In this document: piece by piece, positions 13,915-62,245 of the stretch
Position numbering within the stretch: position 1 is the first letter of the stretch
Layout of the letters: each line of letters begins with the position of its first letter
Origin: Devosia sp.
GTDB lineage: Bacteria > Pseudomonadota > Alphaproteobacteria > Rhizobiales > Devosiaceae
DNA: 64,000 bases
Direction: 5' to 3'
Assembly (NCBI RefSeq): GCF_017307495.1
Contig: NZ_JAFKHE010000013.1
Coordinates: 248,001 to 312,000, forward strand
Position numbers and translations under genes: made by a program
Notes under the pieces: generated by a model
The model's database searches: none
Told to the model about the DNA's origin: nothing
What the model saw: the letters and a program-made list of their open reading frames with translations, nothing else

Positions 13915-14024
13915 GGCGCCCCTCACCCCAACTCTCCCCAGAGGGGCGAGGGGGCGATGTGGCACCGCCGGTTCCCCTCGCGCCCCCTCGCCCCTCTGGG
14001 GAGAGGGCCAGGGTGAGGGGCGCC
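13915..14024. repeat. MITE-like palindromic repeat (family C)
   Basis: A 110-bp element has perfect 14-bp terminal inverted repeats (GGCGCCCCTCACCC at 13915-13928 and its complement at 14011-14024) and internal CTCCCCAGAGGGG hairpins. Relatives lie at 25904-26012 and 39151-39255. Confidence 0.85.
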
Positions 14025-18459: not shown

Positions 18460-18475
18460 GCCCGCGTGAACCAAT

Positions 18476-18498
18476 GGACCGGGGCCTCGCCCCGGTCC
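18476..18498 (+). other. Intercistronic stem-loop after the binding-protein gene
   Basis: GGACCGGGGC (18476-18485) pairs perfectly with 18489-18498 across a CTC loop. No T-run follows. Such hairpins after binding-protein genes commonly protect the upstream mRNA and raise binding-protein levels over the membrane components. Similar hairpins follow the TRAP and Pst binding-protein genes in this window. Confidence 0.6.
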
Positions 18499-18524
18499 GC
18501 ACCACTCAGCACCAGGGGGAACAA

Positions 18525-19421
18525 TTGGCTGTCCTTGCGACGCTCGATTCCGGTTCGCGGGCTGCCGCTCGCGGGTGGAGCGACCTCACCATCCGCAACG
18601 CCTTCATCCTGCCGACGATCGCGTTCCTCATCATCTTCAACATCTTCCCGCTGCTCTACTCGCTCGGCTTTTCCTTCACCCAGTTCCGCGTCTCGCTGAA
18701 CAAGCCGGCCGAGTTCGTCGGCATCCAGAACTATGCCGACCTGCTCGCCGATCCGGCCATCTGGCGCAGCTTCACCACCACCGCGCAGTACGTGATCGTC
18801 TCGGTCGGCGGCCAGATGATCGTCGGCTTCGGCCTCGCCCTGCTGCTCAACCGCCCGTTCAAGTTCAAGGGCCTCGTCACGACGCTGCTGATGCTGCCCA
18901 TGATGCTGTCGCCGGCCGTGGTCGGGCTGTTCTGGAAGCTGCTCTACGATCCGAGCTGGGGCCCGATCAACTACGCCCTCGGGCTGGGCAAGTTCGAGTG
19001 GCTGTCCAACCGCGTCAACGCGCTGTTCGCCGTCGCCATCACCGATATCTGGATGTGGTCGCCCTTCGTCATGCTGCTGTCGCTGGCCGGGCTCTCCGCC
19101 ATCCCCAAGAGCCTCTACGAGGCCGCTGCCATCGATCGCGCCGGCTGGTGGTACACCTTCCGCCGCATCACCCTGCCACTGGTCTCCCCGCTGCTGCTGA
19201 TCGCGCTGATCTTCCGCACCATGGAAGCGTTCAAGGCCTTCGACCTGCCCTTCATCATGTCGACAGCCAGCGTCGAGACCATCGCCATCAAGCTCTACCA
19301 GATGGCCTTCCAGGGCTGGGACACCGGCCGCGCCTCGGCGCTCGCCTACATCGTGCTGATCGTCGTGCTGTGCATCACCAACATCTACGTGAAGTACCTC
19401 AACCGGGTGAAGGAGCGCTGA
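18525..19421 (+). CDS. Carbohydrate ABC transporter permease (MalF-type)
   Basis: The product is about 298 residues with six predicted membrane segments, starting IRNAFILPTIAFLIIFNIFPLLYSLGFSF. The cytoplasmic EAA loop that contacts the ATPase is visible as YEAAAIDRAGWWYTFRRITLPL. A TTG start at 18525 was chosen because a GGGGGA ribosome-binding site lies a few bases upstream; the frame is open for 17 further codons upstream but those overlap the hairpin. It pairs with the MalG-type permease at 20017, from which it is separated by the inserted DUF559 gene. Confidence 0.92.
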   Translation: MAVLATLDSGSRAAARGWSDLTIRNAFILPTIAFLIIFNIFPLLYSLGFSFTQFRVSLNKPAEFVGIQNYADLLADPAIWRSFTTTAQYVIVSVGGQMIVGFGLALLLNRPFKFKGLVTTLLMLPMMLSPAVVGLFWKLLYDPSWGPINYALGLGKFEWLSNRVNALFAVAITDIWMWSPFVMLLSLAGLSAIPKSLYEAAAIDRAGWWYTFRRITLPLVSPLLLIALIFRTMEAFKAFDLPFIMSTASVETIAIKLYQMAFQGWDTGRASALAYIVLIVVLCITNIYVKYLNRVKER

Positions 19422-19422
19422 G

Positions 19423-20016
19423 ATGGCTCATCGTCAATACTCGCGGCCATCGCCTCCCTCCCCCTTGAGGGGAGGGATTGAGGGAGGGGGTGGTGCAGTC
19501 GGCACTGACGAGACGGCAGACGCAATCTTCGCCAATGCCCGCCACCTCCGCAGCCGAAACGTCACTCGTGCCCGCCAACTGCGAACGGTAGCCACACCGC
19601 CCGAACGACACATGTGGAAGCTGCTCCGCTCGTTCACGGACCACAAGTTCCGCCGCCAGGTTCCGATCGGCGCATACATCGTCGATTTCGCCTGCCATCA
19701 GGCGAAGCTGATCGTTGAGCTCGACGGCGAGACCCATTTCACCGCGCAAGCCATCGAGCGAGACCGGGCCCGAACAGCATGGCTGAACGCAGCCGGCTAT
19801 CGCGTCATCCGCTTCACCAACAGCGACATCATTACCAAACCGGACGGAGTGTGGACAACCATTGACGCCATCCTCGCCGGCCTGCCCCCCTCCCCCCTGA
19901 GGGGAGGGGTTGGGGGTGGGGGTCCATCGGCGATCACCGCACCACCCCCACCCTCGATCCCTCCCCTCAGGGGGGAGGGAGGCGACAGCGCCGCAACATC
20001 GGAAAGGGAGGCGTAG
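19423..20016 (+). CDS. DUF559 (PD-(D/E)XK-like) endonuclease-family protein, repeat-bounded
   Basis: The 197-residue product contains a DUF559 core of about residues 35-145, related to Vsr-like and restriction-endonuclease folds. The probable catalytic motif is YIVDFACHQAKLIVELDGETH. The first ~20 codons and last ~38 codons are translated palindromic repeat arms (PPSPLRGGIEGGGG and PPSPLRGGVGGGGP), so the gene is framed by family B repeats. It begins 2 bases after the upstream permease stop, using that gene's AGGAG region, and its stop abuts the ATG of the next permease. It thus looks like a cassette inserted into an ABC operon while keeping translation coupled. Biological role is unknown. 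Confidence 0.85.
   Translation: MAHRQYSRPSPPSPLRGGIEGGGGAVGTDETADAIFANARHLRSRNVTRARQLRTVATPPERHMWKLLRSFTDHKFRRQVPIGAYIVDFACHQAKLIVELDGETHFTAQAIERDRARTAWLNAAGYRVIRFTNSDIITKPDGVWTTIDAILAGLPPSPLRGGVGGGGPSAITAPPPPSIPPLRGEGGDSAATSEREA
19455..19495. repeat. Family B repeat arm at the 5' end of the DUF559 gene
   Basis: A single arm (CCTCCCTCCCCCTTGAGGGG and GAGGGATTGAGGGAGGGGGT) lies within codons 11-24 of the DUF559 gene. Confidence 0.85.
19885..19985. repeat. Family B two-armed repeat at the 3' end of the DUF559 gene
   Basis: Two facing CTCCCC..GGGGAG hairpins are joined by the family linker (GGGGGTCCATCGGCGATCAC). The whole element is translated as the C-terminus of the DUF559 protein. The stop codon lies about 30 bases further on. 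Confidence 0.85.
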
Positions 20017-20973
20017 ATGGCCGCCGTAACCTCGCGCGGCCAGCGCTTCGGCCGACCCGTCGCCATCCTCGCCATTCTCGCGGTGACGCTGGTGTTCCTC
20101 TCGCCGATCCTGTGGATCGGGGCCACCGCCTTCAAGCCGCGCAACGTCGCGACCTCCGTGCCGCCCACCGTGTTCTTCCAGCCGGAGGTCACGCCCTTCG
20201 TGAAGCTGTTCACCAAGCGCGTGCAGGCCAAGGAGAAGCCGACAGCCGAGGTCTATGCCGCCGCCCCGTGGTGGGAGAAGGCGATCTACGACGGCGGCGA
20301 GCGCGTGCTGCGCGTCGGCGACGAAGTGCAGCTATCGCAATACCCCAACCGCTTCCTCAACAGCCTCATCGTCTCGATCGTCTCGACGCTGCTCGCGGTT
20401 TCGATGGGCACCATCACCGCCTATGGCTTCTCGCGCTTCAGGATCAAGGGCGAGCAGGACCTCCTATTCTTCATCCTCTCGACCCGCATGCTGCCGCCGG
20501 TGGTCGTCGCCATCCCGATGTTCCTGATGTACCGGCAGTTCGACCTGACCGACACGCATCTCGGCCTCATCATCCTCTACACCGCCTTCAATCTGAGCTT
20601 CTCGGTCTGGCTGATGAAGGGCTTCATCGACGAGATTCCGAAGGAATACGAGGAAGCGGCGCTGGTCGACGGCTATACGCGCATGCAGGCCTTCTGGAAG
20701 ATCGTGCTGCCCGAAGCCGCTACCGGCATCGCTGCTACGGCCGTGTTCTGCTTCATCACCGCCTGGAACGAATACGCCTTCGCGCTGATCATGACCAACC
20801 GGCGGGCCCAGACCGCGCCGCCCTTCATCCCGTCGCAGATCGGCTCGGGCCTCCCCGAATGGACGGTGATCGCCGCCGGCACGGTGCTGTTCCTGCTCCC
20901 GGTCGCCATCTTCACCTTCCTCCTGCGCAATCACCTGCTGCGCGGCGTCACCTTCGGAGCGATCCGCAAATGA
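20017..20973 (+). CDS. Carbohydrate ABC transporter permease (MalG-type)
   Basis: The 318-residue permease has six membrane segments; the EAA loop is EYEEAALVDGYTRMQAFWKIVLPEA. Compared with many MalG proteins it has a long periplasmic segment (about residues 45-110) between the first two helices. ATG 20017 follows the DUF559 stop directly and has a GGGAGG ribosome-binding site. The stop overlaps the ATG of the next gene (ATGA). It partners the MalF-type permease at 18525. Confidence 0.92.
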   Translation: MAAVTSRGQRFGRPVAILAILAVTLVFLSPILWIGATAFKPRNVATSVPPTVFFQPEVTPFVKLFTKRVQAKEKPTAEVYAAAPWWEKAIYDGGERVLRVGDEVQLSQYPNRFLNSLIVSIVSTLLAVSMGTITAYGFSRFRIKGEQDLLFFILSTRMLPPVVVAIPMFLMYRQFDLTDTHLGLIILYTAFNLSFSVWLMKGFIDEIPKEYEEAALVDGYTRMQAFWKIVLPEAATGIAATAVFCFITAWNEYAFALIMTNRRAQTAPPFIPSQIGSGLPEWTVIAAGTVLFLLPVAIFTFLLRNHLLRGVTFGAIRK

Positions 20974-23381: not shown

Positions 23382-23499
23382 GCGTGGCCACCCCCACCCC
23401 GGCCCTCCCCACAAGGGGGAGGGCGTTCTGTGGCACCGCTCGCGCAACCTCGTCTCCCTCCCCCTTGTGGGGAGGGATCAAGGGTGGGGGTGGCCACGC
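23382..23499. repeat. MITE-like palindromic repeat with 18-bp perfect ends
   Basis: The element has perfect 18-bp terminal inverted repeats (GCGTGGCCACCCCCACCC at 23382-23399, complement at 23482-23499) and internal arms CCCTCCCCACAAGGGGGAGG / CCTCCCCCTTGTGGGGAGG. It lies between the ATPase gene and the first catabolic gene. Confidence 0.85.
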
Positions 23500-24605: not shown

Positions 24606-24705
24606 CTCCCCTCCCCCTTGAGGGGAGGGGTCGGGGGGAGGGGGTGGTTCGGTGATCGCCGCTGGACCCCCACCCTCGTTCCCTCCCCTCAAGGGGGAGG
24701 GAGGC
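24606..24705. repeat. Family B two-armed palindromic repeat
   Basis: Arms CCTCCCCCTTGAGGGGAGGG and CCCTCCCCTCAAGGGGGAGG face each other around the linker GTGATCGCCGCTGGACCCCC. It fills the gap before the Gfo/Idh gene. Confidence 0.85.
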
Positions 24706-28125: not shown

Positions 28126-28500
28126 CCTCCCTCCCCCCTGAGGGGAGGGATGGAGGGAGGGGGTGGTCCGGCGATCACGGATGGACCCCCACCCCCTGCC
28201 CCTCCCCTCAAGGGGGGGGGAGCCGTCCCCCTTCATGCGCGAAGGCTGGGATCGGGCGGGTTGATGTCCCAGTCAGGCTTCCCTCCCTCCTGAGGGGAGG
28301 GATAGAGGGAGGGGGTGGTCCGGCGATCACCGATGGACCCCCACCCCCTGCCCCTCCCCTCAAGGGGGAGGGGAGCCGTCCCCCTTCATGCGCGAAGGCT
28401 GGGATCGGGCGGGTTGATGTCCCAGTCAGGCTTCCCTCCCCCCTGAGGGGAGGGATCGAGGGAGGGGGTGGTCCGGCGATCTCCGATGGACCCCCTCAGG
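28126..28500. repeat. Tandem array of family B repeats with coding relics
   Basis: Three family B elements are arranged in tandem with a period of 153 bp (for example TTGATGTCCCAGTCAGG at 28261 and 28414). Between elements lie two identical 30-nt segments, 28235-28264 and 28388-28417, reading MREGWDRAG followed by stop. They match the last ten codons of the epimerase gene ending at 26914 in 26 of 30 bases, with three synonymous changes and one Asp-to-Glu change. The third element is truncated. The whole 425-bp gap between the lactonase and MFS genes is explained by this array. Confidence 0.85.
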
Positions 28501-62153: not shown

Positions 62154-62245
62154 GCCTCCCTCCCCCTTGAGGGGAGGGATCGAGGGAGGGGGTGGTGCGG
62201 TGATCGCCGACACTCTTACCCCTCCCTACATGGGGGGGAGGGGAG
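62154..62245. repeat. Family B two-armed palindromic repeat (partly degenerate)
   Basis: The first arm (CCTCCCCCTTGAGGGGAGGG) is normal; the second (CCCCTCCCTACATGGGGGGG) is degenerate. It lies between the hypothetical gene and the convergent DUF1697 gene. Confidence 0.8.

Follow-up and report, generated by a model that had tools for sequence, protein, structure and literature searches.

Introduction

BoxC/PIT/TM repeats are intergenic elements with the consensus CCCTCNCCCN3-6GGGNGAGGGN3GGGNGAGGG, i.e., a hairpin followed by a mirror third strand (PMC4666352). The hairpin has a pyrimidine arm, the mirror strand is purine-rich and the units also occur as inverted pairs. A stable triplex has been shown in vitro for the E. 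coli repeat, and the TM loci of E. coli are unusually variable (PMC4666352). Structure-induced instability was proposed for these repeats, no nuclease partner was named, and Holder et al. (2015) found no mobility functions beside the E. coli TM sites (PMC4666352). REP/REPIN elements are the closest described arrangement in which palindromes do have an enzyme. A single nuclease gene, encoding the RAYT (TnpA-REP), is flanked by palindromes, several types share a genome, each enzyme lineage has its own palindrome subtype, and gene-less inverted pairs of approximately 100-150 bp are dispersed in intergenic DNA. Likewise, insertion sequences with MITE derivatives combine a gene-bearing element with gene-less copies that have the same ends.

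DUF559 proteins come from a different enzymatic background. YcjD, the E. coli member, was placed in the PD-(D/E)XK superfamily in 2005 or earlier (PMC1189080), and the family shares its fold with the Vsr mismatch endonuclease and both fold and active site with the Vsr-like (EDxHD) homing endonucleases such as I-Bth0305I. A DUF559 protein of Caulobacter, named VsrA, elicits an SOS/DNA damage response when the cytosine methyltransferase ScmA is missing (PMC12907096), which implies that a DUF559 protein is able to damage DNA in vivo. Here, we analyze a DUF559 gene of a Devosia sp. that is bracketed by BoxC/PIT/TM-like palindromes, and propose, with a probability of roughly 0.7, that the gene moves together with its palindromes as a cassette and encodes the cognate nuclease by which this repeat subtype is spread or converted.

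Results

The window, i.e., the whole stretch of 64,000 nucleotides that was analyzed, carries the DUF559 open reading frame between two permease genes (Table 1). Its start lies one base past the TGA of the first permease gene, and its stop codon, TAG, is followed immediately by the ATG of the second at 20017. The preliminary description had stressed this coupled spacing, correctly so for the stop codon directly before the next ATG; the gap from the preceding stop is one base instead of the two given there, a trivial difference. Its reading that the protein is translated through repeat arms at both ends is borne out: translated palindrome arms make up most of the first ~35 and the last ~45 residues (SPPSPLRGGIEGGGG..., PPSPLRGGVGGGG...PPPPSIPPLRGEGG). 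The stretches 19450-19499 and 19936-19985 are 92% complementary across 50 nt.

Table 1. Coordinates of the DUF559 cassette, its neighbors and related repeats in the window.
Feature	Position	Strand	Basis or comparison
Dispersed repeat, exact E. coli BoxC/TM consensus CCCTCGCCC-CTCTG-GGGAGAGGG-CCA-GGGTGAGGG	13980..14021	+	Consensus from PMC4666352
Permease gene 1, BPD_transp_1, left neighbor	18474..19421	+	Profile match
AGATGGC, left copy of a 7-bp duplication, single in the empty site (G017)	19421..19427	+	Possible target-site duplication; start codon is an uncertainty
DUF559 open reading frame, 197 aa, read through repeat arms at both ends	19423..20016	+	Open reading frame, profile match
Left repeat unit: hairpin 19455-19477 (TCCCTCCCC-5 nt-GGGGAGGGA) and mirror purine strand toward the gene	19450..19499	+	
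DUF559/Vsr-like PD-(D/E)XK nuclease domain; conserved E, D, E-x-D-G-x-x-H, D, R	19561..19872	+	Profile, alignment, model
Right repeat pair: hairpins 19887-19909 and 19958-19980; make-up as in gene-less inverted pairs elsewhere	19884..19994	.	
AGATGGC, right copy of the 7-bp duplication	20015..20021	+	Comparison with G017 empty site
Permease gene 2, BPD_transp_1, right neighbor	20017..20973	+	Profile match
Repeat pair, subtype D; subtype C at the same site in G015	23402..23477	.	Comparison with G015
Gene-less inverted repeat pair, subtype D (that of the window cassette)	24608..24702	.	
Array of four subtype D units	28128..28455	.	
Single subtype D hairpin; 59-nt surroundings 97% complementary to the right end of the cassette	62157..62179	.	

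Residues 47-150 of the protein match DUF559 (PF04480) in Pfam with 113 bits (cut-off 20.6); a match to MTES_1575 lies barely above its cut-off. In an alignment of 15 sequences, E17, D44, E55, D57, G58, H61, D70 and R73 (alignment numbering) are invariant, and these are the residues typical of a Vsr-like active site. An AlphaFold2 model of DUF559 (pLDDT 90) is matched by Foldseek to a solved DUF559 protein (PDB 3hrl), to I-Bth0305I (3r3p; probability 1.00, TM 0.70, E 5e-6) and to Vsr (1cw0 and 1vsr). The sequence profile also retrieves 3hrl and 3r3p, the latter with E 4e-5. Whereas the conservation of the active-site residues can be read from the alignment, catalysis at the repeats is inferred. 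One divergent DUF559-like protein (L099; G054:C1:2109776-2120078) is without the ExDGxxH motif, its active site having decayed, and has no flanking palindromes.

The repeat family is already known under the name BoxC/PIT/TM, a point that the preliminary description missed. The window repeat at 13985 fits the BoxC/PIT/TM consensus exactly, and the cassette's own repeats carry a variant arm, TCCCTCCCC, in the same architecture with a mirror identity of 0.89-1.0. Judged from their sequence, the DUF559-flanking repeats are BoxC/PIT/TM intrastrand-triplex repeats, the formation of the triplex being inferred here. The mirror third strand is not placed at random with respect to the gene: of 155 flanking units, 121 have the better mirror match toward the gene and 24 have it away from the gene (p = 5e-16). 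Repeats of this class are scattered through the window, as had been described, with about ten further sites. Eight sites outside the cassette could be mapped onto the related genome G015; seven of these carry repeats there, six of which are of another subtype, as though the sites stayed constant while their repeats were exchanged. At the orthologous intergenic sites 2519, 23402, 24608, 26994, 28128 and 36760, compared with four G015 loci (L264-L267), both species have repeats, but the subtypes differ.

The association is not confined to this locus. Four DUF559 genes are encoded in the 4.09-Mb host genome, and each has palindromes on both sides, of differing subtypes. Among 61 genomes (the host and its relatives), 41 encode DUF559, copy numbers range from 0 to 11, and the flanks of nearly all copies were examined. 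With a hairpin defined as perfect, with a pyrimidine arm of at least 8, 97 of the 113 copies have a hairpin flank, 58 of them on both sides. Each side has on average 0.69 hairpins in the first 100 bp from the domain, compared with ~0.015 per 100 bp farther out than 500 bp, so that the density near the gene is about 45 times the background. Five loci that appeared to be repeat-free (L071, L072, L074, L080 and L061) have a different palindrome on both sides. Other genes of the same genomes are rarely bracketed in this way: none of 17 Vsr genes, none of 23 PIN domain genes and none of five Y1_Tnp genes is repeat-flanked, and permease controls are so in 2 of 19 cases, on one flank only. Repeat arms are therefore strongly enriched near the ends of DUF559 genes compared with other genes (97/113 versus 0/17 for Vsr, 0/23 for PIN and 0/600 for random positions), which at sequence level establishes both the association and its specificity. 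Chance or a GC-content artefact is ruled out by the reversed-pattern and random-position controls. In the hydantoinase/amidase region of four loci (L114, L058, L069 and L062), two DUF559 genes of different clades lie ~1.7-1.9 kb apart; this arrangement around the same enzymes recurs in several genomes of the genus, and most of the DUF559 genes concerned have a repeat subtype of their own.

A family-agnostic score, in which the left flank is compared with the reverse complement of the right flank (threshold 18), extends the association beyond the genus. Scores of at least 18 are reached by 68% of the copies in the order, 48% of the alphaproteobacterial loci and 48% of the phylum-wide loci, and by none of the random positions (0/600 and 0/336). 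In named genomes, the nearest of which is Devosia, 62% of 79 DUF559 loci pass with inverted flanks; this sample was drawn from a narrower clade alignment and is biased to one DUF559 clade. In other phyla or in beta/gamma classes, 11 of 16 loci (69%) pass in either orientation, compared with 1 of 480 random positions (0.2%). Passing loci include Phycisphaerales, Prevotella, Kapabacteria, WS1, Myxococcales, Dethiobacter and Nitrospinae, and the link thereby reaches Planctomycetes. As judged by eye, the DUF559 flanks of Neisseria gonorrhoeae, Synechocystis, Deinococcus and E. coli KE47 have a similar palindrome. Correia/NEMIS repeats were considered for the Neisseria gene and rejected, as their terminal sequence was not found there and a BoxC-like palindrome is present instead.

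DUF559 and the palindromes also vary together. Matches to a degenerate hairpin pattern number 70 in the host genome (reversed control: 0) and 0-359 per genome across the 61 genomes, in which the reversed control almost never matches. DUF559 number and palindrome number are correlated with rho = 0.78 over the 61 genomes, 0.73 within the genus and 0.70 as a partial correlation on genome size. Among 299 Pseudomonadota genomes, at least four palindromes are found in 58 of the 77 with a strong DUF559 match versus 15 of the 222 without (Fisher p = 5e-31), an association that persists under permutation within 16 families (p = 5e-5). Exceptions exist in both directions. G468, G392 and G032 have many repeats (111, 63 and 42, respectively) without detectable DUF559; conversely, G009, G205 and G034 encode DUF559 and have few pattern matches. 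With G585, these repeat-rich genomes without detectable DUF559 span 34-111 palindromes; they may have lost the gene recently, encode an enzyme too divergent to be recognized or rely on another partner. Repeat subtype follows the DUF559 tree as well, requiring 19 changes compared with 48 when shuffled (0/200 shuffles), with the provisos that the tree rests on ~107 columns, that half its forks are open and that the division into subtypes was made with knowledge of the data. Since agreement between subtype and clade is also expected from orthologous loci, we compared paralogues at non-homologous sites within single genomes. Protein identity and flank similarity remain correlated there (rho = 0.46, permutation p = 0.001), which reduces the case for orthology as the only cause. 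Repeat family and DUF559 are thus correlated in copy number, in presence across the phylum and in subtype versus clade.

Some DUF559 paralogues are discrete cassettes at unrelated sites. Three paralogues in G014 (L071, L072 and L074) and two in G009 (L214 and L236), with 78-93% identity among them, each sit at unrelated sites in a common block that ends in CAGTCGG...CCGACTG, a cassette-like boundary visible in the sequences themselves. Gene-less counterparts are found for subtype F of G014, among them inverted pairs of ~150 bp whose inner parts and hairpins are those of the gene-bearing F element. A RAYT/Y1 transposase as hidden partner was ruled out, as no Y1/RAYT gene (PF01797) is present in the 19 genomes of the genus.

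Comparison with orthologous operons defines the junction in the window. The permease genes that the DUF559 gene separates, described beforehand as normally adjoining, are directly adjacent in eight cassette-less relatives (L036, L037, L039, L040 and L042-L045), whose second permease is ~76-93% identical to that of the window. G015 has the same cassette (protein identity 72%), G014 has a gene-less repeat pair at this junction, and the close relative G017 has an empty site without any repeat. AGATGGC lies on both sides of the cassette and occurs once in the empty site of G017; the counterparts in G014 and G015 are partly similar to this heptamer. As the duplication spans the start codon, selection could have put it there, and we regard it as no more than a possible target-site duplication.

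In E. coli K-12, which has 23 of the repeats and the DUF559 gene ycjD (1351407-1351760), BoxC/TM no. 9 (1351204-1351239; PMC4666352) lies 168 bp from the gene, and an eroded second TM copy overlaps the ycjD stop codon. With 18 TM loci in a genome of 4.64 Mb, we estimate that the two would lie this close by chance with a probability of ~0.003. We find the gene in 3365 of 5426 complete E. coli genomes; at its site between fabI and sapF, the eefRABCD operon is the alternative (PMC12817139). No simple empty site was found at E. coli ycjD, as strains without the gene carry eefRABCD there. In the three fabI-sapF loci that we inspected (L351, L357 and L358), the ycjD/BoxC cassette and this efflux operon are alternatives at one locus. 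An empty-site comparison of an E. coli TM pair gave no clean target-site duplication. In strain MB20 (L364), compared with L355, a TM pair is cut down to one hairpin by a deletion between the units, an instance of repeat-mediated instability.

Discussion

The DUF559 cassettes share with REP/REPIN systems all the traits listed above, and the comparison drawn in the preliminary description holds as a matter of logic, in the clade-specific subtypes and the dispersed gene-less pairs. It does not hold for the enzyme: RAYTs are HUH Y1 enzymes and the genus has none, whereas DUF559 has a Vsr-like PD-(D/E)XK fold. By analogy, the arrangement would work like RAYT/REPIN while being unrelated to it and failing its defining enzyme test; the likeness is one of function only. 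Compared with BoxC/PIT/TM repeats as described (PMC4666352), with which the elements agree in architecture, pairing and intergenic location, the difference is that every subtype here goes with a particular DUF559 clade, where no mobility gene was reported. Vsr shares the fold, yet Vsr genes of the same genomes lack the repeats. I-Bth0305I is intron-encoded, unlike the free-standing, repeat-flanked DUF559. Finally, insertion sequences resemble the cassettes in having gene-less derivatives, but here the sole protein is a Vsr-like nuclease of no known transposase type, and a target-site duplication is unproven.

In the mechanism that we favor, DUF559 would recognize the hairpin or triplex ends of its own palindrome subtype and nick or break the DNA at the repeat ends, which would let the cassette spread between intergenic sites or replace resident repeats; gene-less inverted pairs may be mobilized by DUF559 in trans. 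It is an inference that DUF559 cuts at the repeat and that it acts in trans, and so is the route of strand transfer, whether transposition-like insertion or homing-like conversion by repair. A clue for the former is the window cassette itself, which lies in a junction that is repeat-free in G017 and shows the 7-bp repetition; a clue for the latter is the repeat occupancy in G015, with its differing subtypes. The repeat-mobilizing or repeat-maintaining partnership suggested beforehand is therefore supported as far as association, specificity and co-variation go, while enzymatic mobilization remains an inference, no activity or completed transposition having been seen. A more far-reaching version, which we put forward only tentatively, would see DUF559, with its Vsr fold, as the only enzyme of a class of mobile elements spread throughout the bacteria, recognizing triplex hairpin ends and moving itself and gene-less BoxC/TM copies by an undescribed transposition mechanism without DDE, HUH, serine or tyrosine chemistry.

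Homing offers a different account of the same loci, possible in our view though not probable, in which a free-standing DUF559 endonuclease breaks the DNA at a repeat or close to one and homologous recombination copies the cassette or repeat into the break, the repeats serving as arms for recombination instead of as ends of a transposon. The nearest solved folds (I-Bth0305I and DUF559 3hrl) would suit such an enzyme, and so would the gene-less pair of G014 at the window's insertion junction. The seven of eight mapped sites with repeats in G015, six with another subtype, are what is expected if repeats replace repeats, although these may merely be tolerated intergenic sites, which would lead to site sharing too. 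Empty alleles do exist, as in G017, but their cutting and the copying-in are only inferred, and the cassette entered a junction that has no repeat in that genome, which speaks against this account.

Two further explanations deny DUF559 any part in mobility, as it could instead be a passenger or a repair enzyme. As a repair or structure-specific nuclease of Vsr type, it would remove repeat hairpins or triplexes, repeat-rich genomes would retain it and the flanking repeats would serve autoregulation. We consider this unlikely: the parallel between DUF559 copy number and repeat number and the SOS response to Caulobacter VsrA in the absence of ScmA (PMC12907096) would fit, but a maintenance function does not need subtype-matched inverted flanks, nor does it explain a copy number varying from 0 to 11 at differing sites, with discrete cassettes at unrelated positions. 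We give still less credence to the notion that the repeats recombine on their own and DUF559 is one of many small genes trapped between copies, with nearby repeats as terminators or buffers. The repeats are indeed numerous and recombinogenic, as the variability of E. coli TM loci (PMC4666352) and the reduction from two units to one in MB20 illustrate. Yet no such bracketing is seen for other accessory genes (Vsr 0/17, PIN 0/23), protein clade and repeat subtype co-vary even inside one genome, the mirror strand is oriented preferentially toward the gene and the link recurs in distant phyla.

That a role of this kind for DUF559 is undescribed, as stated at the outset, agrees with the literature searched, from which most subscription journals were missing: we found no paper in it that links DUF559 or ycjD to BoxC/PIT/TM repeats. 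Within that limit, the repeats are known and an enzymatic partner for them is not. The bracketing of DUF559 genes by repeats in many phyla points to DUF559 as the long-missing enzyme of a widespread bacterial repeat family. The link provides a concrete enzyme to test for the origin and spread of BoxC/PIT/TM repeats and gives the uncharacterized DUF559/YcjD family a candidate substrate. It would also mean that the RAYT/REPIN arrangement was invented a second time, with an unrelated enzyme.
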